The notes under the pieces: generated by a model
What the model saw: the letters and a program-made list of their open reading frames with translations, nothing else
What the model was told of the DNA's origin: nothing
Database searches by the model: none
From: Rhodocyclaceae bacterium
GTDB taxonomy: Bacteria; Pseudomonadota; Gammaproteobacteria; Burkholderiales; Rhodocyclaceae
Direction of reading: 5' to 3'
Assembly: GCA_013791905.1 (NCBI GenBank)
Contig: VMSX01000020.1
Span: 124,001-188,000, forward strand
DNA: 64,000 nucleotides
Program-made: the position numbers and the translations under genes
In this document: piece after piece, positions 8,286 to 62,217 of the stretch
How the letters are laid out: every line of letters begins with the position of its first letter
Numbering within the stretch: position 1 is the first letter of the stretch

Positions 8286-9367
8286 TCCAGCGCACTCCCC
8301 TGTATGACAGCCATCTTGCCGCCCACGGTCGCATCGTCAACTTCGCCGACTGGGAAATGCCCATCAACTACGGCTCGCAGATCGAGGAACATCACGCCGT
8401 TCGTCAGGATGCCGGCATGTTCGACGTCTCGCACATGCTGGCCATCGATCTCACCGGCGGCGAGTCACAGGCCTTTCTGCGCCACCTGCTGGCCAACGAT
8501 GTCGCCAAGCTGACTGTGCCCGGCAAAGCGCTCTATTCCTGCCTGCTGCAGGAAGACGGCGGCGTCATCGACGACCTGATCGTCTATTTCTTCACTGAAA
8601 CGCATTACCGCATCGTCGTCAATGCCGGCACGGCCGAAAAAGATCTGGGCTGGATGCAACTGCAGGCCGCCGATTTCGCCGTCAACCTCAAGCCGCGCCG
8701 CGACCTGGCAATGATCGCCGTGCAGGGCCCGCAGGCGCGCGAACGCTTCTGGACAGCCTTCCCGGCCAGCCGTGCCGCCAGCGAAGCGCTCGTGCCGTTT
8801 CAGGCAGCCGAATGGAATGACTGGTTGATCGCGCGGACCGGCTACACCGGCGAGGACGGCTTCGAAATCGCCGTGCCGGCCACTGCTGCCATCGCGGTAT
8901 GGGAAAAACTGGTCGCCGCCGGCATCCGCCCCTGCGGCCTGGGCGCCCGCGACACCCTGCGGCTCGAAGCCGGCATGAACCTCTACAGCCAGGACATGGA
9001 CGAAACGCAAAACCCGCTCGAAAGCGGGCTCGCCTGGACGGTGGACATGAAAGACGCCGGCCGCGACTTCATTGGAAAGTCGGCGCTGGCGGGACGGCGT
9101 GAACAGGGCAAGCTGCAGGCATTTCTCGGCCTGGTGCTGCTCGACAAGGGCGTGCTGCGCGCCCACCAGAAAGTCGTCACCGCCCAGGGCGAGGGCGAAA
9201 TCACCAGCGGCAGTTTCTCCCCCACGCTCAACCAGTCGATCGCCATGGCGCGCCTGCCCGGCGGCGTCGCTCCCGGCGACCTTGTCGAAGTGGCCGTCCG
9301 CGACAAATTACTCCGTGCGAAAGTCGTCAAACCGTCTTTCGTGCGCCACGGCAAATCCCTCATCTGA
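8282..9367 (+). CDS. gcvT: Glycine cleavage system T protein (aminomethyltransferase)
   Basis: 361 residues. Transfers the methylene group from the aminomethyl-lipoyl arm of GcvH to tetrahydrofolate and releases ammonia. N-terminal [19 protein letters not shown] and [11 protein letters not shown] are folate-binding region motifs; [24 protein letters not shown] and the C-terminal barrel [15 protein letters not shown] are all family hallmarks. Starts inside the queD stop (4-nt overlap). Residues about 265-273 (KSALAGRR) are encoded by a copy of the dispersed 25-bp repeat. Confidence 0.96.
9075..9099 (+). repeat. Dispersed 25-bp repeat, copy 1 (inside gcvT)
   Basis: Half-sites GAAAGTCGGCG and CTGGCGGGACGGCG, joined without a gap. 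Encodes KSALAGRR within gcvT. 24 of 25 bases equal the copy in gcvR. Confidence 0.85.
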
Positions 9368-9394
9368 ACTCACCATTTTTATTCGGAGCCCATC

Positions 9395-9771
9395 ATGAAC
9401 ATCCCCGCCGATCTCAAATACACCCAATCCCATGAATGGGTGAAGCAGGAAGCCGACGGCACTGTCACCATCGGCATCACCGATCACGCCCAGGAAGCCT
9501 TGGGCGACATCGTCTTCCTCGAACTGCCCGAGCCCGGTCGCCTGGTGAAAGCCGGCCAGGAGTGCGCGGTGGTCGAATCGGTCAAGGCCGCGTCCGACGT
9601 CTATGCACCGCTTGCCGGTGAAATCGTTGCCCGCAACGAGGATGCCATTGGCGCGCCGGAGAGCGTGAACCAGGACGCCTATGCCACCTGGCTGTTCAAA
9701 CTGAAACCCGCAAACCTTGCCGACCTCGCTGGCCTGCTCGATGCCGCCGCCTACGAGAAAGTGGCTTCTGA

Positions 9772-9775
<4 letters not shown>
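9395..9775 (+). CDS. gcvH: Glycine cleavage system H protein (lipoyl carrier)
   Basis: 126 residues, the usual length. Carries the aminomethyl intermediate between GcvP and GcvT on a lipoyl group; the lipoylated residue is Lys64 in [13 protein letters not shown]-terminal [19 protein letters not shown] and [14 protein letters not shown] match the family. Start at ATG 9395 with CGGAG upstream. Its stop overlaps the gcvP start. Confidence 0.97.
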
Positions 9776-12604
<2,829 letters not shown>

Positions 12605-12612
<8 letters not shown>

Positions 12613-13134
12613 CCAACATCTGATCCTCACCGTCATCGGCGACGACCGCCCCGGCCTCGTCGAAGAACTGGCCAGCGCCATTGCTTCACATGACGGCAAC
12701 TGGCTCGAAGCCTCGCTGGCCCACCTGTCCGGCAAGTTCGCCGGCATTGTCCGGGTGGCCGTGCCGGCGGAGCGCAGCGCGGCGCTGCAAACAGCGCTGA
12801 CAAAACTCTCCGGCCTCAAGGTCAGCGCCGCAATCGCCACAATTGCCGACGCGGAAAAGTCGGCGCTGGCGGGACGGCGCTTCACGCTCGACCTGGTCGG
12901 CCACGACCGCATCGGCATCGTCCGCGAGGTCTCGCAGGTACTCGCACGGCATGCAGTCAACGTCGAAGAATTGGCGACTTACACCAGCAGCGCGCCGATG
13001 TCGGCAGAAATTCTTTTTCATGCTGAAGCCGAACTCTTTGCCGCGCCCGACTTCAATGCCCGTGCGCTCAAGGACGAACTGGAAAGACTCTCCGACGACC
13101 TGATGGTCGACATCACCCTGGGAGAAACTCTGTA

Positions 13135-13135
<1 letters not shown>
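12605..13135 (+). CDS. gcvR: ACT-domain protein, GcvR-like glycine cleavage regulator
   Basis: 176 residues from ATG 12605, overlapping the gcvP stop by eight bases. Two ACT domains: residues 5-80 ([18 protein letters not shown]) and about 93-170 ([20 protein letters not shown]). In E. coli GcvR is an accessory repressor that binds glycine and acts through GcvA; no gcvA is in this window. Position at the end of the gcvTHP set supports a role in glycine control, but that is by analogy. Residues about 85-93 (KSALAGRR), in the linker between the domains, are a repeat copy. Confidence 0.8.
12855..12879 (+). repeat. Dispersed 25-bp repeat, copy 3 (inside gcvR)
   Basis: Perfect consensus: AAAAGTCGGCG then CTGGCGGGACGGCG. 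It sits in the inter-domain linker and encodes KSALAGRR, exactly as in gcvT. Confidence 0.85.
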
Positions 13136-13658
<523 letters not shown>

Positions 13659-13662
<4 letters not shown>

Positions 13663-14345
13663 AACGCGCCTGGCTGCTGCCGCTGCTGCTGATCGCCCTG
13701 CCGGTTCTGGCCGCGGATTTGCCCGTCAAGCCCAGCGGCACGCTGATCGATTTCCGTGTCGATGTGCAAACAAGCGTCCCCAACGATCTGGGCCGCGCCA
13801 CCGCCTTTGCCGAAATGACCGGTGCCGATCCCGCCGAAGTGGCGCGCAAGGTCAAGGCCGCGCTTGCCGACGGGCTGGCCACGGCCAAGGCCCAAACCGG
13901 GCTGACGGTTAAAAGCGGGGCGACCCATACCTACCCGATCTACGCCAAGGGCGGTCGCAGCATCGAAGGCTGGCGCATGCGCTCGGAACTCGTCCTCGAA
14001 AGCCGCGATGCGACGGCGCTGTCGACGACGCTGGGCAAGTTGCAGGGTACGCTGGGCGTCAGCAACATCAACTTCTCCCCCGCCCCCGAAACCCGCCGCA
14101 AGGCTGAAGAAGATGCCACCCTCGAAGCCATCGACGCCTTTCGCGCCAAGGCCGAACGCATCGCCGCAACCATGAACAAACCCTTTCGCATCCGCCAGAT
14201 GAACGTTAGCGGGGGTGGGCACGCGCCTCCCACGCCCATGTACCGCGCCGCCACCATGGCAGTAGAATCTGCTCCAATGCCTGTCGAAGCCGGCGAATCA
14301 AATATCAGCGTAGGCATCTCGGGACAAATCGAACTGATTGATTGA
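13659..14345 (+). CDS. SIMPL (DUF541) domain periplasmic protein
   Basis: 228 residues starting at ATG 13659 in a 4-nt overlap with the upstream stop. A signal peptide (MKRAWLLPLLLIALPVLA, cut before ADLPVK) directs it to the periplasm. The mature part fits the SIMPL/DUF541 fold (YPIYAKGGRSIEGWRMRSEL, a GVSNINFSPAPETRRKAEED stretch and a C-terminal ISVGISGQIELI). Function of the family in bacteria is poorly known; some members affect oxidative stress or are cell-surface proteins. Last gene of the seven-gene plus-strand operon. Confidence 0.8.
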
Positions 14346-14390
14346 CACTAGTTAGGCTCCTGCTATCTGGGAAAACCCATATACCTGGCC

Positions 14391-16412
14391 GTGGATCACA
14401 CGAAAGACGCCAGAATGTTTCTGAATTTCCATTCCAGAAGGCCCGCCCCACACCGGGCGGCGCCCGAAATATGCGCGAGGGCCTGGTTCACCCTGCTGTG
14501 CGCATTTCTCGCTGCGTTTTCCATGTTTGTGCAGCCCGTGCAGGCGGCGGATGACCGCGAGCCTCTGACCTTCGGCGTCTTTGCCTTCCTCGGTGAGGAG
14601 CGCACCCGCGCCATGTATCAACCCGTGGCGGATTACCTCAATCAGACCCTCAAACATGAGCGCATCGTGCTCAAGGTGCTCGCCGCCGGCGAATTGGAGA
14701 ACGCACTTACCGGCGGCGAACTGGACATTGTTACGACCAATCCCACGCATTTCATGGTGATAAGGAAGCAAATTCCTCTGACCGGTGTGATTGCCACTCT
14801 GGTCGGGAGCGAGGCGGGCCAGCCGCAGCACATGCTGGCCGGGGCCATCATCGCCCGTGCCGACCGGAACGACATTCGTACCCTGCAGGATGTCCGCGGC
14901 AAGGTGGTTGCCGCGCCCAGCCTCTCCCACATGGGCGGCTACCGTTCCCAGGCCTATGAACTGTTTCAGGCCGGCGTCCGCCTGCCCGAGCAAGTAGCCC
15001 GTCTGGACATCCTGGGCGAGCACCAGGCCGTCGTGCAGGCAGTGCTGGCGGGAAGCGCCGATGTCGGCTTCGTGCGCAGCGGTATAGTGGAAATGATGGG
15101 GCGTGAGGGCAGTCTGCCGGCGGGTAAAGTAAAATTGATCCACCCGCAGCATCACCCGGCGTTTCTCTACCAGGTGTCCACCCGGCTTTACCCGGAATGG
15201 CCGGTATTTGCCATGCCCCATGTGAAGGAGCATTCAGTGCGCCATGTGGCCGCCGCCCTCTATGCCCTGGAACCGGACAATCCCGCTGCCCGGGCAGCGG
15301 GCATCCATGGCTACACCGTGCCCGCCGATTACCAGTCGGTGGACGAACTATCCCGCGCCCTGCGTCTGCCGCCTTACGACCGGGCGCCCGAATTCACAAT
15401 CAGGGATGCCTGGGAGAAATGGCGTTTGTTCCTGATCCTGGGCCTAGCGACAGGACTGCTGGTGATAGCCTTGTCAGCAGCCCTGATGCTGGCGCTGCGC
15501 CGCGCCAGGTTTGAACAAAGCCGCTCCCACGGCCTGCTGCTCAGTCTCGGCGAAGGCGTATATGGCTGCGACCAGCAGGGCCGATGCATATTCATCAACC
15601 CGGCCGCCCTGCGCATGCTGGGGAGGAACGAAGAGGAAGTAATCGGCCAGAAACAGCACCTGCTGTTCCACCACCACCGACCGGATGGAGAAGTCTATCC
15701 CGAGGCAGAATGCCCAGTGCACCTGACGCTCGACGATGGCCAGGTGAGGCGGGGCGAGGAATGGTTTTTCCGCGCCGATGGCAGCGGCTTTCCCGTCGAT
15801 CTGGTGGTGACGCCCTTGCACGAAGACAAGCAGCGCAGCGGCGCCATTGCGGCATTCCGCGACATCACCCGGCGCAAGGCGATGGACGAGAAGTTGCTGC
15901 ATCTGGCCACCACGGATACGCTAACCGGACTGGCCAACCGCCGCCATTTCCTGGCCCAGGTAGAACAGGAAGCCGATCGCATCCGGCGTTTTGGCAATCT
16001 GGCGGCCTTGCTGATGCTGGATCTGGACCATTTCAAGAGCGTCAACGACCAGCATGGCCACGCTGCGGGCGACGCGGTGCTGAAAGCCTTCGCCCAGACG
16101 GTGCAAGCCAGTCTGCGCAAGACCGACCGGGCCGGACGGATGGGCGGCGAGGAATTCGCCATCCTGCTGCCCGAAACCACACCCGAAGCGGCCCGCAATT
16201 TTGCCGAGCGTCTGCGCCAGACTGTGGCAGCCCTGCCCATCGACTTCGAGAACAGGTCCCTGAGCGTGACGGTGAGCATCGGTGTGACCAGTCTCAGCCC
16301 TGCGGATATTGCGCCGGAAGATGCCTTGCGCAGGGCAGACCAAGCCATGTACCAAGCCAAGGAGAGTGGCCGCAACCGGGTGGAACTGCTGCTTCCCGAG
16401 CAGCCTGGATGA
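14391..16412 (+). CDS. PhnD-like periplasmic-binding domain fused to PAS and GGDEF (diguanylate cyclase)
   Basis: 673 residues. An N-terminal membrane/signal segment (about 28-52) is followed by a periplasmic substrate-binding domain of the phosphate/phosphonate type (PLTFGVFAFLGEERTRAMYQ; TTNPTHFMVIRK; VAAPSLSHMGGY), then a transmembrane helix (about 345-370), a PAS domain (about 380-490) and a GGDEF domain (500-665). The loop is GRMGGEEFAILLP, so active, and the I-site RKTD lies five residues before it. The architecture says: bind an extracellular ligand, make cyclic di-GMP inside. Ligand unknown. Start could also be the Met at residue 9. Confidence 0.92.
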   Translation: MDHTKDARMFLNFHSRRPAPHRAAPEICARAWFTLLCAFLAAFSMFVQPVQAADDREPLTFGVFAFLGEERTRAMYQPVADYLNQTLKHERIVLKVLAAGELENALTGGELDIVTTNPTHFMVIRKQIPLTGVIATLVGSEAGQPQHMLAGAIIARADRNDIRTLQDVRGKVVAAPSLSHMGGYRSQAYELFQAGVRLPEQVARLDILGEHQAVVQAVLAGSADVGFVRSGIVEMMGREGSLPAGKVKLIHPQHHPAFLYQVSTRLYPEWPVFAMPHVKEHSVRHVAAALYALEPDNPAARAAGIHGYTVPADYQSVDELSRALRLPPYDRAPEFTIRDAWEKWRLFLILGLATGLLVIALSAALMLALRRARFEQSRSHGLLLSLGEGVYGCDQQGRCIFINPAALRMLGRNEEEVIGQKQHLLFHHHRPDGEVYPEAECPVHLTLDDGQVRRGEEWFFRADGSGFPVDLVVTPLHEDKQRSGAIAAFRDITRRKAMDEKLLHLATTDTLTGLANRRHFLAQVEQEADRIRRFGNLAALLMLDLDHFKSVNDQHGHAAGDAVLKAFAQTVQASLRKTDRAGRMGGEEFAILLPETTPEAARNFAERLRQTVAALPIDFENRSLSVTVSIGVTSLSPADIAPEDALRRADQAMYQAKESGRNRVELLLPEQPG

Positions 16413-16579: not shown

Positions 16580-16594
16580 CTCTGGGAGATGTAC

Positions 16595-19742: not shown

Positions 19743-20339
19743 ATGTCGCCGCCAACTGCCATGACACCCGAAGACCGCGTCAGCCATGCCCTCGGCGAGG
19801 ATGTCGCGGTGCTGCCTTACGATCCGGCCTGGCCGCAACGCTTTGCCGAGGAAGCGGCGCATCTGCGTGCCCGCCTACCCGCCGACCTGATCGGCCGCAT
19901 CGAACACTTCGGCAGCACCGCCGTGCCCGGCCTGGCCGCCAAACCGATCATTGACATGCTGGTGGAAATTCCTGCGCTGGACCTGGTGCAGAACCGCATC
20001 GCGCCGGTCCTCGAAGCGCAGGGCTACGATTATCTCTGGCGGCTGAACGAGGACCGTTCCGGCCTGGCCTATGCCTGGTTCATCAAGCGCGATGCGACTG
20101 GCCGGCGCACCCATCACATTCACTTTCTGGCGCCGCAGTCGCGCTACTGGGAACGCCTGTTGTTTCGCGATTATCTGATCGCGCATCCGCAAACTGCCAA
20201 CGAATATGCGGAAATCAAGCAGCGTGCGGCGGCCGCCCACGCCGCCGACCGTGCCGCTTTTGCGCGTGCCAAGGGGAAGTTCATCGAACGGGTCACTGCA
20301 CTGGCGCGGGAAAAAGTCGGCGCTGGTGGGACGGCGTAA
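19743..20339 (+). CDS. GrpB/UPF0157-family protein
   Basis: 198 residues from ATG 19743 (or 190 from ATG 19761, MTPEDRVSHALGED). UPF0157 proteins have a nucleotidyltransferase-like fold; landmarks are VLPYDPAWPQRFAEEA, IEHFGSTAVPGLAAKPIIDM (the GST motif and Asp) and the C-terminal FRDYLIAHP...YAEIKQ. Function unknown in general; in a few proteins fused to CoaE. The last residues (KVGAGGTA) are encoded by a copy of the dispersed repeat, so the natural end may have been altered. A decayed second copy lies at 22619-22946. Confidence 0.85.
   Translation: MSPPTAMTPEDRVSHALGEDVAVLPYDPAWPQRFAEEAAHLRARLPADLIGRIEHFGSTAVPGLAAKPIIDMLVEIPALDLVQNRIAPVLEAQGYDYLWRLNEDRSGLAYAWFIKRDATGRRTHHIHFLAPQSRYWERLLFRDYLIAHPQTANEYAEIKQRAAAAHAADRAAFARAKGKFIERVTALAREKVGAGGTA
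20312..20336 (+). repeat. Dispersed 25-bp repeat, copy 4 (3' end of grpB-like gene)
   Basis: AAAAGTCGGCG then CTGGTGGGACGGCG, directly followed by the stop codon TAA. The corresponding place in the decayed duplicate carries the long form of the same repeat. Confidence 0.85.
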
Positions 20340-22618: not shown

Positions 22619-22946
22619 AATACCCCTGAAGATCCGTCAGGTATGCCTTCGGCAAAGACGTAGTAGTAGTGCCCTACGACCCGGCCTGGCCTATGCGTGG
22701 TTCATCAAGCGCGATGGCGCGGGTCGGTGCACCCATCATGTGCATTTTCTGGAACCGCAGTCACACTACTGGGAACGTCTGTTGTTTCGCGATTACCTGA
22801 TCGCGCATCCGCAACTTGCCAGGGAATATGCGGAAATCAAGCAGCGCGCGGCAGCCGCCCACGCCGCCGACCGTGCCGGCTTTGCGCGCGCCAAGGGGGA
22901 GTTCATCGAGCGCGTTACCGCGCTGGCGCAGAAAAGTTCGGCGTGA
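22619..22946 (+). pseudogene. Decayed grpB-like gene with internal deletion
   Basis: Matches the intact gene at 19761-20339 but has lost its start codon (AAATACCCC for ATGACACCC) and about 235 bp of the middle. The junction lies at CCGGCCTGGCC (22681-22691), a sequence that occurs twice in the intact copy (19824-19834 and 20059-20069), so the deletion probably arose by recombination between these 11-bp repeats. 235 is not a multiple of three, so the frame is broken as well. The 3' part (FRDYLIAHPQLAREYAEIKQ) remains readable. Confidence 0.85.
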
Positions 22947-22983
22947 CCTCAGGGAATCCCTTTTCGGGACTGGTGGGACGGCG
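22932..22983 (+). repeat. Dispersed repeat, long form (3' end of the decayed grpB copy)
   Basis: Half-site AAAAGTTCGGCG, then 26 extra bases (22944-22969, starting TGACCTCAGGGAATCCC), then half-site CTGGTGGGACGGCG. It occupies the same place in which the intact duplicate carries the short form. Confidence 0.85.
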
Positions 22984-23290: not shown

Positions 23291-23321
23291 GCCTTGCCGC
23301 CGGGCCGCCCCAAGGCAAGGC
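23291..23321 (-). repeat. Conserved-loop hairpin upstream of ftsB
   Basis: 8-bp perfect stem GCCTTGCC/GGCAAGGC enclosing the 15-nt loop TTGGGGCGGCCCGGC (minus-strand sense). The same loop appears in three other hairpins with unrelated stems. A G/C-rich inverted repeat (about 23400-23435) lies further upstream toward eno. Confidence 0.75.
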
Positions 23322-29929: not shown

Positions 29930-29954
29930 AAAAGTCGGCGCTGGTGAAACGGCG
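29930..29954 (+). repeat. Dispersed 25-bp repeat, copy 5 (immediately upstream of uvrC start)
   Basis: AAAAGTCGGCG then CTGGTGAAACGGCG; two changes from consensus. It ends one base before the uvrC ATG and fills the place where the ribosome-binding site should be. It also lies 30 bp upstream of the divergent earP start. Confidence 0.85.
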
Positions 29955-29984: not shown

Positions 29985-31115
29985 ATGTCATCCGATCTCA
30001 ACCCCTCCTGCGACATTTTCTGCGCCGTCATCGACAATCTGGGCGATGCCGGCGTGTGCTGGCGTCTGGCGCGGCAACTGGCACGGGAACATGGCTGGCG
30101 CGTCCGGCTGTGGATCGACGATCCGTCCCCGCTGGAAAAGCTGGCTCCCGACCGACAGACGATTCCCGTCGAGGTGCAGCGCTGGCAGGGCGATCTTCCG
30201 GCAATCCAGCCTGCGAATGTTGTGATTGAAGCCTTTGCCTGCGAGTTGCCGGCTGCCTACCTTGCGGCCATGGCCGCCCGGCCACGGCCACCGGTGTGGC
30301 TGAATCTGGAATACCTCTCTGCCGAGGAGTGGGTAGCCGGTTGCCACGCGCTGCCGTCGCCGCATCCGCGCTTGCCGCTGACCAAATATTTCTTCTTTCC
30401 CGGTTTCGTCCACGGCACGGGCGGACTGTTGCGCGAACGCGATTTCGCCACTCATTGCGCCGCACCCCGTGCGGGGCACTTCGTCCCGCCAGTCCCGAAA
30501 AATGGATTTCACGAGGTCACGTCGACTTTGGGCGAAGCGCTCGAAATATCGCTGTTCTGTTACAACAACCCGGCGTTGCCCGCATTGCTTAAGACCTGGC
30601 GCGATGGCAAAGAGTTGGTGCGCTGCCGGGTTGCCGACGGCCTGCCCCGCCAGCAGGTCGAAGACTGGCTGGGCGAGTCATTCCCCACCGGATGCCAACA
30701 TTTGCGCGGCGCGCTCGAATTGCATGCCCAGCCATTTCTGCCGCAGGATGGATACGACCAACTGTTGGCTGCCAGCCAGCTCAATTTCGTACGTGGCGAG
30801 GATTCACTGGTGCGCGCCCAGTGGGTAGAGCGTCCCTTTGTCTGGCAGGCCTATCGACAAGTCAATGGAGCACACCACGCCAAGCTAGATGCCTTGCTGG
30901 ATCGCTACTGCAGCGCCCTCGAAGCAGGGACCGCAGCTGCCACGCGCGCCTTCTGGCGGGCATGGAACGGTCAGGGCGAGATTGCCTCCGGCTGGCCGGC
31001 ATTCCGTGCAGCTTTGCCGGCACTTAAAGCTCATGCACCAAGCTGGGCACGGCAAATCACGGCGCATGGCGATCTGGCGACAAATCTGGTCAAGTTCTGC
31101 CAGTCAAAGCTATAA
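29985..31115 (+). CDS. earP: EF-P arginine rhamnosyltransferase EarP
   Basis: 376 residues. Transfers rhamnose from dTDP-rhamnose to Arg32 of EF-P so that ribosomes pass polyproline stretches. GT-B fold; N-terminal FCAVIDNLGDAGVCWRLARQ carries the conserved Asp, and FVRGEDSLVRAQWVERPFVW the nucleotide-sugar site. Directly upstream of efp. Residues about 165-182 (beginning VPPVPKNGFHEVTST) are encoded by a long-form copy of the dispersed repeat, in frame, between GFVHGTGGLLRERDF and LGEALEISLFCYN. Confidence 0.95.
   Translation: MSSDLNPSCDIFCAVIDNLGDAGVCWRLARQLAREHGWRVRLWIDDPSPLEKLAPDRQTIPVEVQRWQGDLPAIQPANVVIEAFACELPAAYLAAMAARPRPPVWLNLEYLSAEEWVAGCHALPSPHPRLPLTKYFFFPGFVHGTGGLLRERDFATHCAAPRAGHFVPPVPKNGFHEVTSTLGEALEISLFCYNNPALPALLKTWRDGKELVRCRVADGLPRQQVEDWLGESFPTGCQHLRGALELHAQPFLPQDGYDQLLAASQLNFVRGEDSLVRAQWVERPFVWQAYRQVNGAHHAKLDALLDRYCSALEAGTAAATRAFWRAWNGQGEIASGWPAFRAALPALKAHAPSWARQITAHGDLATNLVKFCQSKL
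30479..30530 (-). repeat. Dispersed repeat, long form (inside earP)
   Basis: Minus-strand sense: half-site CAAAGTCGACG, 27 extra bases (beginning TGACCTCGTGAAATCC, ending CGGGA), half-site CTGGCGGGACGAAG. Matches the long form at 22932-22983 over its whole length with a handful of changes. Open in the earP frame. Confidence 0.8.
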
Positions 31116-43824: not shown

Positions 43825-44441
43825 GGGCGGGCAGGTCGTCCGGTCATGGTGACAGTACGGACGTGACCGGCGTTATTACCCAGACGAAATGTGGAGGATT
43901 GCGTATGGTGGGCAAGCAGATATTCGCTCATGTCACCGCGCGCGGCGGTCATGGTCGAATCCTGCGACTGGAGAGCTGCTTCATCCGCCACACGTGCCAG
44001 AGTTTGCGCTGGCGTAAGGTATGGCGTCACCTGAGAGGCAAAAGTCGGCGCTGGCAGGACGGCGGCAGAGGTACCCATGACAGCAGCCAGCCGACTTTCA
44101 GTTGGGGAAAACTGCGAATTTCCCGCCATGGCCAACCAGCCGACGACTGCCACGCCCGCCACCGAAGCTGCCAGCGCCAGCCCCGGGTGGTGACGACCAG
44201 TCGGTTGCAGTTTGCGCGGCGCTAGCACCACCGGCTCTGCGCGAATCTTTGCCATCACGCAGGCGGTCAAATCCCGGCTGCCGGTGCATTCCCGACGCAA
44301 CTGATCGCCAATCAGCACATAGGCCTGCCAGTTCTCGCGTAATTCGCTCTCGTGGGTGGCTGCCTTCACGGCAGGCCGCACTTCGTGGGGATCGAGTTCA
44401 CCGTCTAGCAGGGCTGACAGTTCAGACAGTTGTGATTTCAT
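43821..44441 (-). CDS. rseA: Anti-sigma-E factor RseA/MucA
   Basis: 206 residues from ATG 44441 (MKSQLSELSALLDGELDPHE). The N-terminal cytoplasmic domain binds RpoE (LRENWQAYVLIGDQLRRE), one membrane helix (about 88-106), then a periplasmic domain contacting RseB. GGAGAG lies upstream of the ATG. Residues about 127-134 (AVLPAPTF), just past the membrane, are encoded opposite a plus-strand copy of the dispersed repeat. Confidence 0.93.
   Translation of the reverse strand: MKSQLSELSALLDGELDPHEVRPAVKAATHESELRENWQAYVLIGDQLRRECTGSRDLTACVMAKIRAEPVVLAPRKLQPTGRHHPGLALAASVAGVAVVGWLAMAGNSQFSPTESRLAAVMGTSAAVLPAPTFASQVTPYLTPAQTLARVADEAALQSQDSTMTAARGDMSEYLLAHHTQSSTFRLGNNAGHVRTVTMTGRPARP
44040..44064 (+). 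repeat. Dispersed 25-bp repeat, copy 6 (antisense within rseA)
   Basis: AAAAGTCGGCG then CTGGCAGGACGGCG; one change from consensus. The host gene reads the opposite strand, giving AVLPAPTF. Confidence 0.85.
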
Positions 44442-47877: not shown

Positions 47878-48294
47878 CTAGCCCAATCTGGCGCGCCACT
47901 TCAACCACAAGGATAACTGCCGGTACGCAGTCTCGCCGGTAGTATCCGGCAACAAGGGTAACGTCAGCAGTTGGCCATTTTTACGTAAGCGCAACACGAT
48001 CACTCTCGACAACACAGCAGTTTGCGGCAGGATCGTCGCCGTCTCGCGAACGCCGACTTTCGTGTCGACTTCAAGTTCGCCCTGCGCACCCAGATGCAAA
48101 CCAACGACGGCCGGTCGGCTCTGCCTCTCAAGGAAATAAACCAGCGAAGCCACCACCAGACCAATCATGGCCAGACGTAGCGGCCACGACAACACCAACG
48201 GCAGGATTGCAACAACCGCCAGCAAGTGCGCCAACACCAGCGTGGCCAGCAACCGCTGTGAAACTCGCAGTGGAATCATCAAGGGCAACTTCAC
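47878..48294 (-). CDS. YgfX-like membrane protein
   Basis: 138 residues from GTG 48294, or 133 from ATG 48279 (MIPLRVSQRLLATLVLAHLL). Two adjacent hydrophobic helices (about 12-32 and 36-53) and a soluble C-terminal half ending in a Trp-rich LSLWLKWRARLG, as in the YgfX/CptA family near sigma-E and nadB loci. In E. coli YgfX pairs with YgfY (SdhE); no ygfY is seen here. Residues about 76-83 (KVGVRETA) are encoded by a degenerate copy of the dispersed repeat. Confidence 0.7.
   Translation of the reverse strand: MKLPLMIPLRVSQRLLATLVLAHLLAVVAILPLVLSWPLRLAMIGLVVASLVYFLERQSRPAVVGLHLGAQGELEVDTKVGVRETATILPQTAVLSRVIVLRLRKNGQLLTLPLLPDTTGETAYRQLSLWLKWRARLG
48047..48071 (-). repeat. Dispersed 25-bp repeat, degenerate copy 7 (inside ygfX-like gene)
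   Basis: Minus-strand GAAAGTCGGCG then TTCGCGAGACGGCG; four changes from consensus. Same strand as the gene, encoding KVGVRETA, the frame also used in gcvP and the grpB-like gene. Confidence 0.5.
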
Positions 48295-51716: not shown

Positions 51717-52685
51717 TCAGAATTTCAGCAGGGCTGCGCCCCAGGTAAAACCGCCGCCCACGCCTTCGAGCAACACCGTATCGCCAGCGCCGATTTTTCC
51801 GGAGCGCACGGCCTCATCAAGGGCCAGCGGGATCGAGGCTGCAGAGGTATTGCCGTGGCGGTCGACGGTCACTATGCATTTTTCAACGGGCAAACGCAAT
51901 TTCTTTGCCGTCGCTTGCATGATACGGATATTCGCCTGATGCGGCACCAGCCAATCCACTTGATCGGCCGTCATGCCGGCGGCACGTATCACCTCATCGG
52001 CCACTTCGGCCAGCACCTTGACGGCAAACTTGAATACCGCCTGACCATCCATGCGCAGGAATGGATCGCCAATCGTCTGACCATCACAAACATGGCCGGC
52101 CACGGCAAGAATATCCCGATAACGACCATCGGCATGCAGGGCCGTGGCGTAAATACCGGGCGTATCACTCGCTTCCAGCACGATCGCACCGGCACCATCA
52201 CCAAACAGCACGCAGGTGCCGCGATCGCGCCAGTCGAGGATGCGCGAAAACACCTCGGCACCGACCACCAGCGCCCGCTTGTGCGAACCGGAACGGATGA
52301 ACTTGTCAGCCACCGAAAGTGCGTAAATGAATCCGCTGCAAACGGCCTGCAGGTCGAAGGCGGCCGCACCATTGGTGATCCCCAGCTTGTCCTGCAACAA
52401 TGCCGCAGTACTGGGAAAAATGAAATCGGGGGTCGACGTCGCCAGGACGATCAGGTCGATGTCGTTTGGCGCACAACCGGCTGATTCAAGCGCGCGCTGA
52501 CTGGCCACCAGGGCCAGATCACTGGCAGCAGCCCCGGCCGGCGCAAAGTGGCGCGCCCGGATGCCGGTGCGCTCGGCAATCCATTCGTCAGAGGAATCAA
52601 GGCCGCGTGCGGCGATCAATGCGTTGTTATCGACTGGATCGCCCGGTAAATAACCACCCGTGCCGGTAATGCGAGAATGAATCAT
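51717..52685 (-). CDS. fabH: 3-oxoacyl-[ACP] synthase III
   Basis: 322 residues; first condensation of fatty-acid synthesis (acetyl-CoA plus malonyl-ACP). Cys in [14 protein letters not shown], His/Asn in [13 protein letters not shown] and [18 protein letters not shown] lies eight bases before ATG 52685. Between plsX and fabD in the usual order. Confidence 0.97.
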
Positions 52686-54074: not shown

Positions 54075-54098
54075 GATGACTCCTTACTTCAAATCGAT

Positions 54099-54653: not shown

Positions 54654-54750
54654 AAACGGCGAATGCTATCATGCGCCGACACCGCCAGTCAAAGGCTCTT
54701 TCCTACAAAAAGCCTGCAAAAACATCTGCCAACCCGATTCTACAGCCGCC

Positions 54751-55329: not shown

Positions 55330-55339
55330 GTCATTGTCC

Positions 55340-56053: not shown

Positions 56054-56978
56054 ATCGTGCGAAGGCACTACCCAGCCCGGCTGCCATCTCTGCACCAAAG
56101 CGCCGTGCAAATTTTTCAGCCAGATTGGGTTTCATTGTGTAATCTCTTATTTCCTCGGCATTGATTACGTCGCGTGCAACCGAGTCGACCGTCCCAAAAT
56201 CATCGGCCAGCCCCAGTTCGATGCTTTTAACACCGGTCCACATCAACCCCGAGAACATGTCGGGAGTTTCCTTCAGCCGCTGACCGCGCCCCTCGCGCAC
56301 CACGTCGACAAACTGCTGGTGAATATCGTTGAGCATGCCTTGGGCGTGCGTCTTGTGGCGCTCGTTCTGCGGCGAGAACGGGTCGAGAAAACCCTTGTTC
56401 TCGCCGGCAGTCAGCAGGCGTCGCTCAATGCCCAGCTTGTCCATGCTGCCGGTAAAACCGAAACCATCCATCAGCACGCCGATTGAACCGACGATGCTGG
56501 CCTTGTTGACGAAGATCTTGTCGGCGGCCGAGGCCACGTAATAACCGCCCGAAGCGCAGACATCCTCCACCACCACGTACAGCGGCTTGTCGGCATGTTT
56601 TGCGCGCAGACGGCGAATTTCGTCGGTGATGATGCCGGCCTGCGTCGGGCTGCCGCCAGGGCTGTTGATGCGCAGCACCACGCCGGCCGTACCCTTGTCG
56701 GAAAAAGCCGCCTGCAGCGCACTGATGACATCGTCGGCATTGACGTCACCCTTCGCCTGAATGACGCCCTGCATCTCGACCAGTGCCGTATGTTTGGCGC
56801 TCTTGCCGTCGTGACTAATTGCCCCCCAGTCCACCAGCACCGCCAGCAGGATGGTCACGTAAGCAAAGCCCAACAGCTTGAAAAATATACCCCAGCGCCG
56901 GGCCCGCCGCTGCTCGCTGACAGCCGCCAGTGCGACTTTTTCCAGAATCTTGTGTTCCCAGTTTGAATCTTCTGCCAC
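56040..56978 (-). CDS. sppA: S49-family signal peptide peptidase SppA
   Basis: 312 residues; one membrane helix (about 30-48), then a periplasmic ClpP-like serine peptidase. Ser in VVVEDVCASGGYYVASAADK and the Lys about 50 residues later in the SIVGSIGVLMDGFG segment. Short, single-domain (not the two-repeat E. coli form). Degrades released signal peptides. 15 bp downstream of the Rieske gene. Confidence 0.93.
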   Translation of the reverse strand: MAEDSNWEHKILEKVALAAVSEQRRARRWGIFFKLLGFAYVTILLAVLVDWGAISHDGKSAKHTALVEMQGVIQAKGDVNADDVISALQAAFSDKGTAGVVLRINSPGGSPTQAGIITDEIRRLRAKHADKPLYVVVEDVCASGGYYVASAADKIFVNKASIVGSIGVLMDGFGFTGSMDKLGIERRLLTAGENKGFLDPFSPQNERHKTHAQGMLNDIHQQFVDVVREGRGQRLKETPDMFSGLMWTGVKSIELGLADDFGTVDSVARDVINAEEIRDYTMKPNLAEKFARRFGAEMAAGLGSAFARFSLR

Positions 56979-56993
56979 GTCAATCGCCCTTGG

Positions 56994-57362
56994 TTACGGC
57001 ACAACCGGAAAGTTGGCCTTTTCTGACAAGAAAACATTACCACCACGTTCCGTTACAACCAGCGCCTGGAGACCACGGCCACTACAACGCCCGCTCAAGC
57101 AAGCACCCGTCACCGGATCATAAAGCGCACCATGGGTAGCGCAGATCAAGTATAGCCTTGCCCGATCAAAGAACTCGCCAGCGTTCCAGTCCAATTCGGC
57201 GGGCACGTGGCCACAACGGTTTAGATAGGCAAAAACCCTCCCGTTGAAGCGCACCGCAAATGCCGGTTCGCGGCAGCCATGCCAATCGACCTCGAACCGT
57301 GCGCCATGCCCGCCATCGACCAGCTCGGCACTGGTGCATATCAGGCGTTCGCCGTCAGCCAT
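56994..57362 (-). CDS. Rieske [2Fe-2S] protein
   Basis: 122 residues, soluble. Ligands are CxH in NRCGHVPAELDW and CxxH in YLICATHGALYDPVTG, binding a Rieske cluster. No oxygenase or membrane part; it may be a ferredoxin-like electron carrier. Between sppA and the HAD gene in several beta-proteobacteria, role unknown. It overlaps the HAD gene end by 22 bases. Confidence 0.9.
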   Translation of the reverse strand: MADGERLICTSAELVDGGHGARFEVDWHGCREPAFAVRFNGRVFAYLNRCGHVPAELDWNAGEFFDRARLYLICATHGALYDPVTGACLSGRCSGRGLQALVVTERGGNVFLSEKANFPVVP

Positions 57363-57997
57363 GTCGCCAAGTCCTCGACGGAGTGGGCACAGTAGCGTGG
57401 CGCGGCCGCTTCCAGAATTTCGCGTGGATGGGCACCATAACTGACGGCCACGGCATCGACACCGGCATTCTGTGCCATCAGGAGGTCATGTGTCGTATCG
57501 CCAATCATCAAGGTCGCTGCTGGCGCAACGGCAAATTCGGCCATCAACTCTTCGAGCATCTGGGGATGGGGCTTGGAATGACATTCGTCGGCACAGCGCG
57601 TCGCATGAAAATGACTGCCAAGACCACTGTACTCAAGCGCCCGCGCCAGCCCCAGCCGCGACTTGCCGGTCGCCACGCCCAGCCAGCGGCCACTTTCGGC
57701 CAGTTCCAGCATCAGCGCATCAACACCGGAAAAGAGCAGCAGTTCGTGGTCGCGCGACAGGTAATGATGGCGATAACGTTCGGCCAGATGCTCGTAGCGC
57801 CCTTCGTCCAGGTCAGGCAGGGCATAGCGCAGCGCATCCACCAGCCCCAGTCCGATGATGTGACGGGCGCGTTCATCCGATGGCGGTTCCAGTCCAAGGT
57901 CACACGCAGCCGCCTGCACGCTTTGCGCGATCACGCCCGCCGAATCCATCAGCGTGCCATCCCAGTCAAACACAATCAGTTCATAACGCCGGGCCAT
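57341..57997 (-). CDS. HAD-family hydrolase (phosphoglycolate phosphatase-like)
   Basis: 218 residues from ATG 57997 (MARRYELIVFDWDGTLMDSA), preceded by AAGG; an ATG at 58018 lies within the rluC end. Motif I FDWDGTLMDS, motif II VATGKSR, motif III HSKPHP and motif IV MIGDTTHDLLMAQNAG are all intact. Gph-type phosphatase, substrate not determined. Start lies inside the 3' end of rluC (17-nt overlap). Confidence 0.92.
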   Translation of the reverse strand: MARRYELIVFDWDGTLMDSAGVIAQSVQAAACDLGLEPPSDERARHIIGLGLVDALRYALPDLDEGRYEHLAERYRHHYLSRDHELLLFSGVDALMLELAESGRWLGVATGKSRLGLARALEYSGLGSHFHATRCADECHSKPHPQMLEELMAEFAVAPAATLMIGDTTHDLLMAQNAGVDAVAVSYGAHPREILEAAAPRYCAHSVEDLATWLTANA

Positions 57998-58967
57998 TTG
58001 CCTTACTTCTTTCATCAACCTTACCTTTCTCTAACTTCTCGATAAATTTCTTCAGTTCCAGCGGTAGCGGAGCAGCAAGCAGCAAACCTTCCTTGGTAAG
58101 CGGATGAGGCAACCGCATTGAAGCGGCATGCAGAAACATGCGTTTCATTCCGACCTTATGCAAGTCGCGATTCAGCGCAAAATCGCCATATTTGTCGTCG
58201 CCGACGATGGGGAACCCCAGATGGGCGAGATGCACGCGAATCTGATGGGTACGACCGGTGCGCAATTGCACCTCAAGCAGGCTGAACTCACCCCAGGGCG
58301 TTTCCCAGTACTCCTGCAGGCGCATGATCGAATGGGACTCCTTGCCCTCGGGCGAGACCCGCACACGCCGCTCGCCCTCGGCAGTCAGATACTTGAGCAA
58401 CGGCAACTTTACATTACGCAACTGGTCGCGCCAGCGCCCTCTGACCAGCGCCAGATAGCGTTTGTCGATCCCCCCGTCACGAAACAGGTCGTGCAGGCTG
58501 GTCAGCGCCGATCGTTTCTTGCCGATGATGAGTAATCCTGAGGTTTCCCGGTCAAGCCGATGCGCCAATTCAAGGAAACGCGCACTCGGTCGCGCCTTTC
58601 GCAACTGCTCGATAACCCCAAAACTGACCCCGCTGCCACCGTGCACTGCCACCCCGGACGGCTTGTCGACAACGATCATGGCTTCATCTTCGAAAACCAC
58701 TGTGAATTCTCGTCCCGGCACTGGAGTGTCGTCAGCCTTCTCTGCCACCCGTACCGGTGGCACGCGCACCCGATCACCCATGACCAAGCGCCGGTCAGCC
58801 GCCGCCCGGCCTTTGTTCACGCGCACTTCACCACTTCTCAGGATGCGATAAACGTGACTTTTTGGCACACCCTTGAGGCGCTTCAGCAAATAATTATCGA
58901 TACGCTGCCCGGCGCCATCCTCGCCAACCTCAAGAAACGTGACCGAGTTCTCACTTAACTCTTTCAT
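57981..58967 (-). CDS. rluC: 23S rRNA pseudouridine synthase RluC
   Basis: 328 residues. N-terminal S4 domain (RIDNYLLKRLKGVPKSHVYR), then the RluA-type catalytic core with Asp in AHRLDRETSGLLII and RTHQIRVHLAHLG. RluC forms pseudouridine at 955, 2504 and 2580 in E. coli 23S rRNA. Divergent from rne, the usual rluC-rne arrangement. Confidence 0.95.
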   Translation of the reverse strand: MKELSENSVTFLEVGEDGAGQRIDNYLLKRLKGVPKSHVYRILRSGEVRVNKGRAAADRRLVMGDRVRVPPVRVAEKADDTPVPGREFTVVFEDEAMIVVDKPSGVAVHGGSGVSFGVIEQLRKARPSARFLELAHRLDRETSGLLIIGKKRSALTSLHDLFRDGGIDKRYLALVRGRWRDQLRNVKLPLLKYLTAEGERRVRVSPEGKESHSIMRLQEYWETPWGEFSLLEVQLRTGRTHQIRVHLAHLGFPIVGDDKYGDFALNRDLHKVGMKRMFLHAASMRLPHPLTKEGLLLAAPLPLELKKFIEKLEKGKVDERSKANGPAL

Positions 58968-59496
58968 TCAACTCCTTCATTCGTAATATAATGCCCCAGC
59001 TTTGCCGTCTCCGGACGGCGTGCCCGGAGACACGAAGCGGTTCCGGGGCGTCATCCGGTGGTGTTGTCAGCGATGCGTGATTCAGATTCGTTTATTTTAC
59101 TGAACCACACCGCTAGGCATGGGATAGGCAAGACGATCCGCTGATCCGCCCGAAGGATAAATGAAGAACAGGGCAAGGGTCACCGGTCGTCCACCTGTCC
59201 TGCACAGCCCCAGAACATCGTTGGCACGGGGTAACAAACCACCGCGCAGCGATACTACTTCGTCACAAGACATTTTTTACGCGCACCACAGGCTTTGATT
59301 CACGATGCCGCAGCTGCAACACAACGCAGGGCGGGGTCGCCATCAGATAAATCGACAAATTCAATAACCCATTTGCCCAGTCCATCATTTACCAATGTCA
59401 CTACCGATGAGCCTGATTTTGCAAAAGTGAGCAACGCCGCAATTATCTAGCGGCGTGATATTTGTCGTGCCTTCCTGCCTGCGCGTGGGAGCACAC
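58968..59496 (+). promoter_or_regulatory. Long rne leader with promoter-like element and alternative hairpins
   Basis: The 529 bp between divergent rluC and rne contain a perfect TATAAT at 58987-58992; its -35 is poor (TTCATT). If used, the leader is about 490 nt. Two competing hairpins lie at its 5' end: GCCGTC/GACGGC (59004-59019) and TCTCCGG/CCGGAGA (59009-59030). RNase E in E. coli controls its own mRNA through a long structured 5' leader, so a similar role is likely. No gene is seen in the region. Confidence 0.55.
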
Positions 59497-62217
59497 ATGA
59501 AACGCATGCTGTTCAATGCGACGCAGGCCGAGGAACTCCGCGTCGCGATCGTCGATGGTCAAAAACTCATTGACCTCGATATCGAGTCGGCCAACAAGGA
59601 ACAACGCAAGAGCAACATCTACAAGGCAGTCATCACCCGCCTCGAGCCCAGTCTCGAAGCTGCCTTTGTCGATTATGGCGCCGAACGCCACGGCTTTCTG
59701 CCGTTCAAGGAAGTTTCGCGCAGCTTTTTCCTACCCGGGGTCGAAGCCGGACGCGCACGTATCCAGGACGCCCTCAAGGTCGGCCAGGAACTCATCGTCC
59801 AGGTCGAGAAGGATGAACGCGGCAACAAGGGCGCGGCACTCACCACCTATGTGTCCCTCGCCGGCCGCTATCTGGTGCTGATGCCGAACAACCCACGTGG
59901 TGGTGGCGTCTCGCGCCGCATCGAGGGTGAGGACCGTCAGGAGTTGCGCGAAGTGATGGATCAACTCGATGTCCCCGCTGGCATGAGCCTCATCGCCCGC
60001 ACTGCGGGCATCGGGCGCTCCGCCGAGGAATTGCAGTGGGACCTGAACTACCTGCTGCAACTTTGGGGAGCCATCGACGGCGCGGCCAAATCCCAGAATG
60101 GTGCATTCCTGATCTATCAGGAATCCAGCCTGGTGATCCGCGCTATCCGCGACTACTTCCATGCCGAGATCGGCGAGATTCTCATCGATACGGACGACAT
60201 CTACGAGCAGGCGCAGCAGTTCATGAGCCACGTCATGCCCGGCAATGTCGCCCGCGTCAAACGTTATAGTGACGACGTACCGCTGTTTTCGCGCTTCCAG
60301 ATCGAACACCAGATCGAGTCGGCCTATTCGCGGCAGGTTACCCTGCCCTCCGGCGGCGCGATAGTCATCGACCATACCGAAGCGCTGGTCTCGGTCGACG
60401 TCAACTCCGGTCGTTCCACCAAAGGCGCCGACATCGAGGAAACCGCCCTGCGCACCAACCTCGAAGCTGCCGATGAAATTGCCCGTCAGTTGCGCTTGCG
60501 CGATCTCGGCGGCCTGATCGTCATCGACTTCATCGACATGGAATCAACGAAGAGCCAGCGCGATGTCGAAAACCGGCTGCGCGACGCCCTGCATTTTGAT
60601 CGCGCCCGCGTCCAGACCAGCAAGATCTCGCGCTTCGGCCTGCTTGAATTGTCGCGCCAGCGCCTGCGCCCGGCGCTCGCCGAAACCAGTTATATCACCT
60701 GCCCGCGCTGTACCGGTACCGGACACATCCGCAGCACCGAATCGGCCGCTCTGCACATCCTGCGCATCCTCGAAGAGGAGGCAATGAAGGAAAACACCGG
60801 CGCCATCCACGTTCAGGTACCCGTCGATGTCGCCACCTTCCTCCTCAACGAAAAGCGCGTGGATATCGCCCGTATCGAAATGCGCCACCGCGCCAATCTG
60901 CTGATCATCCCGAATCGCTATCTGGAAACACCGCAGCACGAAATCACCCGCCTGCGCCACGACCAGCTCAACCAGGATGGCCCCACCCTTGCCAGCTACG
61001 AGATGGCCATAAAGCCCCTCGAGGAAGATTTGAGCACCCTCGCCGCGCAAGCTGAGGGGAAACCAGCCAGAGCCGAAGCCGCAGTCAAGGGCATCACACC
61101 GGACCACCCGGCCCCGATCGTCGCTCCGAAAGAAGCCCCTCCGGTCGCAGCTGCGCCCGGCCTGTTCGCCAAGATCATGTCCTGGTTCTCAGGCGACAAG
61201 AAGGAAGCGGAAGTCGTCGCCCCCGCCAAGAAAACCGACAAGCCCGTCCGTCGTGAGCGTGGGGAACGCAGCGAGCGTGGTGAACGAGGCGGCCGTGGCC
61301 GACGCGACAACCGGGAAGGACGCGAAGGCGGCGAGCGCAAGGAACGCGCCACCACCCCCCGTGGCGATAACCGGCAGAGCCGCAAGGAACGCCCTGAAAA
61401 GGGAACACGTACTACTGAAGCTGCAGACACCGCAGCAACTACCGAGGCACGGCCAGCCAGACCCAGACCCGCCGAGAAAGATACGCCCCAGAAGGAATCT
61501 CCAGCCATCATTTCGGGAAGCCCGACCGAGAGCTCTACAACTGAATCCGCAGGTGAAGGCAGCCGTCGGCGTGGCCGGCGCGGTGGCCGGGGTCGTAGTG
61601 AACGGCGCAACGAAGAAGCCGCAGTCGCAGTAACCGGCAATGAGGTCGCAGCCACCGTCGCGCAGACAGAAATGGCACCAGCTATTGAAACTGCCGCCAT
61701 TCCGACAGCGCCGACTTTTGCACAAGTGGAACAAGCGGCCATTGCTGTTGAGCCGTCGATTGTTCCGGTTGCAGAGCCTGCCGCAGCAATTGCCATTCCT
61801 GAGCCGACACCGGCAATCGAAGCGCCGGAACCTATTGTTGCATCTGAAACCGGGGTGGTAACCGAAGTCGCAACCGCTGCGCCAACCGAAGCCTTGACCG
61901 GGGCGCCTGCGGAGCCAATCACACCGGCCCCTGCTACAGAACCGGTCGCCGTGTTGATCAGCCCGGAAACGCCAGCAGCACCGGAAGTTCCGAAGACAGT
62001 TGCCCCGGTGGAGACGGTTGCGGCGGTGGCACCGCCGCCGCCGGTCGACCTGTCAGCCAGCTTGCAGCAAGCCGGCCTGCAGATGGTCGAAACCTCGAAT
62101 GCAGTGGCGGTTCCGGCCGTACCGAGCGTTGTGCAGCCGCTGGGCCGCAAGCCGAAACCAGCGGTAGTCATTCCCGCCGAACCGCTGCAAATGGTGGAAA
62201 CTCAACACAAGACCTAG
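59497..62217 (+). CDS. rne: Ribonuclease E
   Basis: 906 residues from ATG 59497 (MKRMLFNATQAEELRVAIVD), after GGGAG. Endonuclease at the head of mRNA decay and rRNA/tRNA processing. S1 domain about 38-118, catalytic Asp301 (SVDVNSGR) and Asp344 (IVIDFIDM), zinc-link Cys402/Cys405 (CPRCTGTGH), then a disordered tail. The tail holds an Arg-rich segment (GERSERGERGGRGRRDNREG) and a long Ala/Pro/Val stretch, typical scaffold for degradosome partners. A degenerate repeat copy lies within the tail. Confidence 0.97.
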   Translation: MKRMLFNATQAEELRVAIVDGQKLIDLDIESANKEQRKSNIYKAVITRLEPSLEAAFVDYGAERHGFLPFKEVSRSFFLPGVEAGRARIQDALKVGQELIVQVEKDERGNKGAALTTYVSLAGRYLVLMPNNPRGGGVSRRIEGEDRQELREVMDQLDVPAGMSLIARTAGIGRSAEELQWDLNYLLQLWGAIDGAAKSQNGAFLIYQESSLVIRAIRDYFHAEIGEILIDTDDIYEQAQQFMSHVMPGNVARVKRYSDDVPLFSRFQIEHQIESAYSRQVTLPSGGAIVIDHTEALVSVDVNSGRSTKGADIEETALRTNLEAADEIARQLRLRDLGGLIVIDFIDMESTKSQRDVENRLRDALHFDRARVQTSKISRFGLLELSRQRLRPALAETSYITCPRCTGTGHIRSTESAALHILRILEEEAMKENTGAIHVQVPVDVATFLLNEKRVDIARIEMRHRANLLIIPNRYLETPQHEITRLRHDQLNQDGPTLASYEMAIKPLEEDLSTLAAQAEGKPARAEAAVKGITPDHPAPIVAPKEAPPVAAAPGLFAKIMSWFSGDKKEAEVVAPAKKTDKPVRRERGERSERGERGGRGRRDNREGREGGERKERATTPRGDNRQSRKERPEKGTRTTEAADTAATTEARPARPRPAEKDTPQKESPAIISGSPTESSTTESAGEGSRRRGRRGGRGRSERRNEEAAVAVTGNEVAATVAQTEMAPAIETAAIPTAPTFAQVEQAAIAVEPSIVPVAEPAAAIAIPEPTPAIEAPEPIVASETGVVTEVATAAPTEALTGAPAEPITPAPATEPVAVLISPETPAAPEVPKTVAPVETVAAVAPPPPVDLSASLQQAGLQMVETSNAVAVPAVPSVVQPLGRKPKPAVVIPAEPLQMVETQHKT
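61695..61719 (-). repeat. Dispersed 25-bp repeat, copy 8 (antisense within rne tail)
   Basis: Minus-strand AAAAGTCGGCG then CTGTCGGAATGGCG; three changes from consensus. The plus-strand gene reads it as AIPTAPTF, close to the AVLPAPTF of rseA. Confidence 0.6.

Follow-up and report, generated by a model that had tools for sequence, protein, structure and literature searches.

Bacteria of two families favour the uptake of DNA of their own kind by means of a sequence signal. In the Neisseriaceae the DNA uptake sequence (DUS), for which ComP is the receptor, is a 12-mer of the ATGCCGTCTGAA type with an invariant CTG core. The uptake signal sequence (USS) of the Pasteurellaceae, which belong to the Gammaproteobacteria, consists of a 9-bp core and downstream segments that extend it to up to 32 bp; the sections of PMC12616744 that treat its form give the core as AAGTGCGGT or ACAAGCGGT and the downstream segments as AT-rich. 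Those sections and corresponding ones of PMC3630211 describe hundreds of copies, clade dialects, and occurrence on both strands and in coding as well as intergenic DNA as features of DUS and USS, and inverted pairs are said there to be common in genomes of either kind (PMC12616744). On the history of the DUS, Frye et al. (PMC3630211) hold that DUS-based transformation arose only once the lineage had diverged from Chromobacterium violaceum. Here we describe a dispersed 25-bp repeat, with the consensus RAAAGTCGGCGCTGGCGGGACGGCG, that was first noticed in a 64-kb stretch of DNA from a bacterium of the Rhodocyclaceae (called the window in what follows; C19:124001-188000 of the source assembly, G000, which comprises 3.64 Mb in 30 contigs). 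From its sequence and its distribution, we consider that this 25-mer is most probably a genomic DNA uptake sequence, and we judge it to be a putative self-DNA uptake signal of independent origin, the third next to the DUS of the Neisseriaceae and the USS of the Pasteurellaceae. No report of an uptake sequence in the Rhodocyclaceae was found among the papers listed from the open PubMed Central library, including those listed for AAAGTCGGCG.

Number, form and placement of the repeat

When up to two mismatches were allowed and the four linker bases were left free, 517 copies of the 25-mer were found in G000 (262 on the plus and 255 on the minus strand), and none was found with the reversed control pattern. 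The exact 14-mer AAAGTCGGCGCTGG occurs 383 times (184 plus, 199 minus), and its reversed control again gave zero. A close reading covered 864 kb, or 24% of G000 (C1 1-360000, C4 1-440000 and the window). In this DNA the numbers of sites with 0 to 8 mismatches to the consensus are 18, 40, 41, 18, 21, 14, 6, 15 and 75, respectively, whereas five order-3 Markov simulations gave 0 sites at 0-5 mismatches, 3.4 at 6, 16 at 7 and 78 at 8; from 7 mismatches upward the observed counts equal the background. As 152 real sites stand against 0 simulated ones at 0-5 mismatches, with a valley before the background sets in, some 152 sites stand apart as a population of their own. The original prediction had agreed beforehand to fall if the genome-wide count of the 25-mer was no higher than chance, and with 517 against 0 copies genome-wide and 152 against 0 in the close reading it holds.

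A logo drawn from 149 sites has 25 positions, comprising a weak purine, the strongly conserved 14-mer, four weaker positions and the block ACGGCG. Its edges are sharp, with almost no conservation in the 39 bp before or the 30 bp after the 25-mer, and no flanking duplication is seen in it. Folded as a single strand, the 25-mer does no better than its shuffles (z -0.26).

The placement of the repeat was analysed with gene calls from a simple, purpose-made gene finder. Among 158 sites, 105 are coding, 46 are intergenic and 7 lie across a gene edge, where random placement would give 88% coding, 8.0% intergenic and 3.6% edge sites; the enrichment of intergenic sites over random placement is 3.6-fold (P = 6e-15). 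Within genes, one frame dominates for each orientation (48 of 62 same-strand and 29 of 43 opposite-strand sites). Replication direction was inferred from GC skew in two contigs, and 76 sites were assigned to the leading and 73 to the lagging strand, showing no bias. Spacing of the 25-mer is somewhat evener than random, clearly so in one contig (coefficient of variation 0.74, P = 0.003) and marginally in the other (0.82, P = 0.058). Three pairs lie within 200 bp among the 158 sites, one of them inverted (C4:437438 and 437471) and two direct.

Dialects in the family and origin of the sites

Copies were counted in 395 genomes of the family, with one mismatch allowed and the C/T position of the core left free, and in 390 genomes with the frame pattern AAAGTC-N12-ACGGCG; the genomes were drawn from a larger group and the counts tallied by hand. 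At least 100 copies are present in 65 family genomes belonging to seven genera. In the 395-genome set these are 16 of 19 genomes of g1, 21 of 22 of g2, the single genomes of g9 and g38, all four of g86 and all nine of g104; with the frame pattern, 13 of 16 genomes of g11 are added. An order-wide search of other families returned 0-5 matches in each of 338 genomes except G475, which has 14, with a pattern that is blind to dialects with other outer blocks. Among the genomes searched, the 25-mer is nearly restricted to part of one family. The 14 matches of G475 lie on C45 and other contigs and are of two dialects, and 12 kb of its contig C45 contain no copy of the G000 dialect; transfer and assembly contamination are both possible sources. 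In G139, which is otherwise almost free of the repeat, five of six sites fall within 41 kb (C1:1461265-1502266; L446-L448). This stretch shows no clear difference in GC content and only short, weak similarity to G000 sequence; it may possibly have been received from a repeat-bearing relative.

Dialects by genus and species share the fixed 25-bp frame AAAGTC-N12-ACGGCG, with cores such as GTCGGCGCTGG, GTCGACGCTGG and GTCAGTCCC-like sequences, and de novo word counts gave the dialects AAAAGTCGACGCTGG-N4-ACGG in G102 and AAAGTCAGTCCC...ACGGCG in G280. The last block varies as well within the genus of G000, which is represented by 18 other genomes (G001-G018, the congeners). Counts of ACGGCG and ACGGCA forms are 378 and 29 in G000, 4 and 89 in G002, 7 and 212 in G017, and 9 and 276 in G004, the two patterns also differing in the core; in G005 the 3' block is ACGGTG in 8 of 10 sites seen that carry an insert (see below), and also in the gcvP site. 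Five genera without the repeat were searched for other dialects over 80 kb each, and no strong dispersed word was found in this small sample, in which some may be missed; in G036, from a genus without the repeat, GACTTTTCCA is weakly over-represented (6 against 0.11 in 80 kb).

The origin of individual sites was followed at three loci. In gcvT, 12 of the 13 other congener rows have no net insertion or deletion around the site, and six of these carry the site (at up to 6 mismatches) while six do not. In gcvP, the motif stands in all 16 congener rows including G000 (the alignment shifts it in row G016) and in 10 of 80 named relatives, the closest of which, at 81-83% identity in GcvP, are metagenome bins labelled Rhodocyclaceae and Sulfuritalea. 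Among the 70 named relatives that lack the motif, the protein is shorter by one residue in 58, by ten in 6, by two in 4 and by four in 1, and has equal length in 1; in none is it shorter by eight residues, which would be expected for a plain 25-bp insertion. Across genera the linker of the gcvP site varies while its outer blocks are nearly constant in DNA, which points to constraint on the DNA. Two observations weigh on the other side. At gcvT, 51 of the 64 named distant rows without the site are shorter by 1-5 residues (mostly 3-4) and 13 show no net change, so that only the congeners provide a clean test there, and at gcvR neighbouring insertions and deletions spoil the comparison. Taking the three loci together, we read the sites as coming and going by substitution and not by transposition, cleanly among the gcvT congeners and with support at gcvP.

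This agrees with the preference expressed at the outset for substitution or conversion over simple insertion. The lengthening of the host gene that goes with insertion of a Rickettsia palindromic element was not seen with the 25-mer. It had also been said that the same residues at each site in homologous proteins of unrelated genera would speak against the repeat, and here the outcome is qualified: the GcvP residues recur in 10 of the 80 relatives, all 10 of which have the DNA motif, but L145 carries a similar peptide (VGAGNT) written in other codons.

A putative uptake signal and its rivals

We propose that the 25-mer would mark self DNA. During natural transformation, DNA that carries it would be preferentially bound and imported by a surface receptor that conspecific cells bear on their type IV competence pilus, and biased uptake followed by homologous recombination would cause matching sites to spread and to be kept by molecular drive. 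The outer blocks would present a constant frame to the receptor and the centre would constitute the dialect; the reader may be a minor pilin. Competence of these bacteria, an uptake bias exerted by the 25-mer and its reading by a minor pilin are what we infer from the genomes. Molecular drive would be expected to yield hundreds of near-identical copies, growth by substitution, a fairly even spread, no strand bias and species dialects.

Over-representation, strand balance, clade dialects and an origin of sites by substitution are properties that the 25-mer has in common with DUS and USS. It resembles the DUS of the Neisseriaceae further in its hundreds of copies, its dialects by genus, its coding and intergenic sites and the logic of self DNA, in its occurrence in Betaproteobacteria, and in that a pilin of the ComP_DUS family is encoded. 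It differs from it in being discontinuous and 25 bp long, in occurring in another family, in having a single inverted pair and in carrying internal inserts. The consensus is a different 25-mer and not a DUS-type 12-mer; the only likeness between the two is a short stretch resembling GACGGC, which could arise by chance. GACGGC(A) is present in the reverse complement of the Neisseria DUS, and the match may be fortuitous. With the USS of the Pasteurellaceae the 25-mer shares a core followed by a downstream block, a discontinuous form, a similar total length, hundreds of copies and types that follow clades. The sequence is a different one, though, as neither USS core nor AT-rich segments are found, and the second block of the 25-mer (ACGGCG) is GC-rich and strongly conserved.

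The survey of competence genes covered ComEC and pilins. ComEC (PF03772) is present in all 62 genomes tested, 32 with the repeat and 30 picked for lacking it. In G000 a minor-pilin cluster is located at C4:263633-270994. Its first gene matches the Pfam family ComP_DUS (PF16732) with E = 1.6e-9 and 38.9 bits, the cut-off being 27.3, and is followed by genes for a GspH/FimT-type pilin, a PilV-like protein (below the NCBIfam cut-off), PilW and two more proteins, called PilX- and PilY1-like from their position and size. The ComP_DUS-family pilin is a candidate receptor, no more. A PDB search with it retrieved general type IV pilins, with no ComP among the 16 matches listed.

Several results weigh against an uptake sequence. 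ComEC and the minor-pilin cluster do not discriminate, as genomes without the repeat have such genes too. A ComP_DUS match is found in 61 of the 62 genomes, above the cut-off in 60, and it is as common with the repeat as without; neither ComP_DUS nor ComEC, the genes tested, tracks the repeat in these 62 genomes. ComP_DUS finds no match in the repeat-bearing genome G102, and its match in G193 is weak. Conversely, G006 and G210 belong to repeat-bearing genera and are nearly devoid of the repeat (0 copies in G006, which is 87% complete; 0 in G210 by the one-mismatch count and 4 by the frame pattern), yet both keep ComEC and the ComP_DUS pilin. The part of Braus et al. concerned with ComP (PMC8897410) has its homologues as seemingly restricted to the Neisseriaceae, so that the Pfam match may reflect a general PilE-like relationship. 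Pilin charge does not split the groups as expected: the means are 1.2 in 30 repeat-positive and 0.9 in 19 repeat-negative rows for PilE/ComP-like proteins, and -0.1 in 23 and 1.4 in 12, respectively, for FimT-like ones, the rows including paralogues and weak BLAST matches. Inverted pairs, which DUS and USS genomes commonly have although they are no defining trait, are not frequent here, with one among 158 sites, and the 25-mer is longer than the DUS. Finally, at least 120 stretches in IMG/VR contain a match, and these may be phage genes or host flanks. One viral contig, L323, has five matches to the 25-mer pattern between positions 883 and 2239, four of them spaced 316 bp, which suggests a tandem array.

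Other explanations account for parts of these data. A motif that organises the chromosome or guides recombination (like Chi, KOPS or the sites of nucleoid occlusion), bound by a cytoplasmic protein, would agree with hundreds of fairly evenly spaced copies. Chi and KOPS show a replication-strand bias, however, and the split of 76 to 73 lacks their leading-strand character; such motifs are also far shorter than 25 bp, and dialects of the repeat change inside one genus, all of which makes this explanation quite unlikely. A dispersed mobile or palindromic element, be it of the repetitive extragenic palindromic (REP), miniature inverted-repeat transposable element (MITE) or Rickettsia type, inserted into and between genes, would explain the many near-identical copies, the recurring peptides and the long forms with internal inserts. 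It is slightly less likely still, given that congener GcvT proteins have the same length in six rows with and six without the site, that GcvP differs by one residue in most named rows lacking it (58 of 70), and that the logo has sharp edges and no flanking duplication and the repeat does not fold beyond its shuffles.

The intergenic enrichment, with 46 of 158 sites where 8% would be expected, is what a transcription factor or an RNA-binding regulator with a very large regulon might leave behind. Yet two thirds of the sites are in genes, in both orientations and several frames, and the 46 intergenic sites include 13 in converging and 5 in diverging gaps, compared with 59 and 77 among 409 gaps of at least 40 bp, the opposite of promoter placement; we regard a regulator site as very improbable. 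That the same peptides recur might finally suggest a coincidence of codon usage and conserved protein motifs. This is refuted by the counts, and the intergenic and antisense copies, the zero of the reversed-pattern control and the shared GcvP site, in which the linker varies while the outer DNA blocks are nearly fixed, leave it practically no probability.

Copies in the window and inserts within the repeat

At up to four mismatches the window contains nine copies of the 25-mer, six on the plus and three on the minus strand. Those on the plus strand lie inside gcvT (9075..9099; 1 mismatch, peptide KSALAGRR), inside gcvP (10932..10956; 2 mismatches, KVGAGKTA), where the same site is occupied in relatives from several genera, inside an ACT-domain gcvR-like gene (12855..12879; perfect consensus), at the 3' end of a GrpB-family gene (20312..20336; 1 mismatch), between uvrC on the minus and earP on the plus strand (29930..29954; 3 mismatches), and antisense inside rseA (44040..44064; 1 mismatch, AVLPAPTF). 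The minus-strand copies are at 48037..48061 (4 mismatches, KVGVRETA), at 51774..51798 (a degenerate copy with 4 mismatches) and antisense inside rne at 61695..61719 (3 mismatches, AIPTAPTF). Pfam supports GcvT, GcvP, an ACT-domain GcvR-like protein, GrpB, RseA and RNase E/G as the host genes. Two long forms are also present. One, at 22932..22983 on the plus strand, consists of the repeat arms, the left one longer by a single base, around an insert A of 26 bp and is intergenic by the simple gene finder; the other, at 30458..30529 on the minus strand, has diverged arms, insert A and one unit of insert B, and is antisense inside a predicted gene.

The original prediction listed eight copies in the window. 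Seven were correctly located, at 0-3 mismatches, and the eighth, given at 48047, is really the minus-strand copy at 48037-48061 with 4 mismatches. As a full set the list fell short, for it missed the minus-strand copy at 51774-51798 and both long forms. It was right in placing one copy outside coding sequence near uvrC, namely that in the gap between uvrC and earP. In 100 dinucleotide shuffles of the window no copy appeared.

A separate dispersed repeat, GGGCCGCCCCAAG, has four plus-strand copies in the window, at 23302, 40834, 50688 and 53757, the last two being followed by a stretch of the GGGGGCAG...GAGCGTGGGG type. Elsewhere, two such stretches lie inside or against 25-mer copies (C1:120245 and C4:90387). 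A gene for a tyrosine-type phage integrase with an Arm DNA-binding domain adjoins rne (window 62816-63907, plus strand).

Insert A (TGACCGAAGGGAATCCCCTTTTCGGGA or a 24-bp version of it) is located after base 11 of the repeat, between AAAAGTCGGCG and CTGG. A regular expression gave 21 matches in the 864 kb, one of which was false (33 bp, C4:235283) and was removed; the 20 accepted copies comprise 10 of 24 bp, 9 of 27 bp and one of 26 bp, and 11 are in predicted genes (4 sense, 7 antisense). As this expression demands the right repeat arm, it is no measure of how frequent insert A is elsewhere. With an arm-free expression for one subtype, 6 of 7 matches were inside the repeat. One further copy of insert A is in a different dispersed repeat, of the GGGGGCAG...GAGCGTGGGG type (C4:248652). 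Insert B is built of 21-bp units resembling ATGAAATGCCCCGCAGCGGGT, which precede the final six bases ACGGCG singly or as a tandem pair; of the 18 units matched, 13 are intergenic. Insert A can be read in frame, for instance in a protein that we take to be TrpC-like from its downstream residues (KVG-VTEGNPLFGT-GGTA). Intergenic copies share the same two lengths, and length alone is therefore no proof of selection for frame.

The junction of insert A was searched in the 395 genomes with one mismatch allowed. It was found 61 times in G000, 77 in G008, 28 in G005, 13 in G011 and 11 in G012, at most 5 times in six other congeners, and not at all in eight, among them G002, G004, G016 and G017. Outside the genus there are 22 in G222 (g86), 9 in G026 (g9) and 4 in G055 (g38), and none in the genomes of g2 and g104; the zero obtained for g11 is weak, as the pattern carries the G000 core. 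In other genera the junction turned up six times as a single match; that in G216 looks like a true long form and three are unlike one.

Two orthologous pairs set a plain 25-mer in G000 against a clean insertion in a congener, of 24 bp in G009, in a predicted gene, and of 27 bp in G008, between genes, in both cases without duplication. Two further pairs (L440/L166 and L463/L168) are unaligned at the site and were excluded. The comparison of L445 with C4 of G000, where two different long forms occupy the same intergenic gap with differing adjoining sequence, is only suggestive. At gcvR, G008, G010, G015, G013 and G016 have a centre that is 12 bp longer and of other letters than the perfect 25-mer of G000, and this may be a separate event. 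As other repeat-bearing genera have the plain 25-mer without insert A, the plain form appears to be the older one, and some copies probably acquired their small inserts later.

The inserts show short inverted repeats. Folded as single-stranded DNA, short and long forms range from z -1.24 to 0.46 and do not exceed their shuffles, which leaves stable hairpins unsupported; nor does helical phasing explain the insert lengths, as 21, 24 and 27 bp have no common phase. The original prediction was reminded of Rickettsia palindromic elements or DNA uptake sequences. The latter comparison is supported, and the former does not apply to the 25-mer, whose behaviour is not that of an inserted element, but finds a partial echo in the inserts, some of which are in frame inside proteins and others intergenic or antisense. 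Insertion of insert A in a gene without a frameshift is seen; the inserts differ from Rickettsia elements in being 21-27 bp long, in lying inside a dispersed 25-mer and in folds that stay within the range of shuffles. Insertion sequences that target REP elements, and single-stranded DNA transposons of the IS200/IS605 kind, likewise insert at a fixed position of a repeat without target duplication, although the inserts here are much too short to code for a transposase.

A tentative reading, possible and yet short of probable, would join both sets of observations: a third self-DNA uptake system whose 25-bp signal is now a favoured landing site of minute inserts that spread between sites without target duplication. 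Such spread would possibly be favoured by uptake sequences being repeatedly presented as single-stranded DNA during transformation, and inserts of these lengths, which do not close reading frames and may still allow the signal to be read, may for that reason be tolerated. They also pose a new question, namely how so small a sequence comes to occupy one set position within an uptake signal.

If the 25-mer is indeed an uptake sequence, the Rhodocyclaceae would be the third bacterial family known to favour the uptake of DNA of their own kind by a sequence signal. With such an independent case, from a family represented here mostly by environmental metagenome bins, the reasons for which such signals evolve could be put to a real test. 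Natural contrasts for finding the receptor would come from the length of 25 bp, from the dialects within a genus and from sister genera that lack the signal, and the signal could serve to mark pairs of DNA donors and recipients in environmental genomes.

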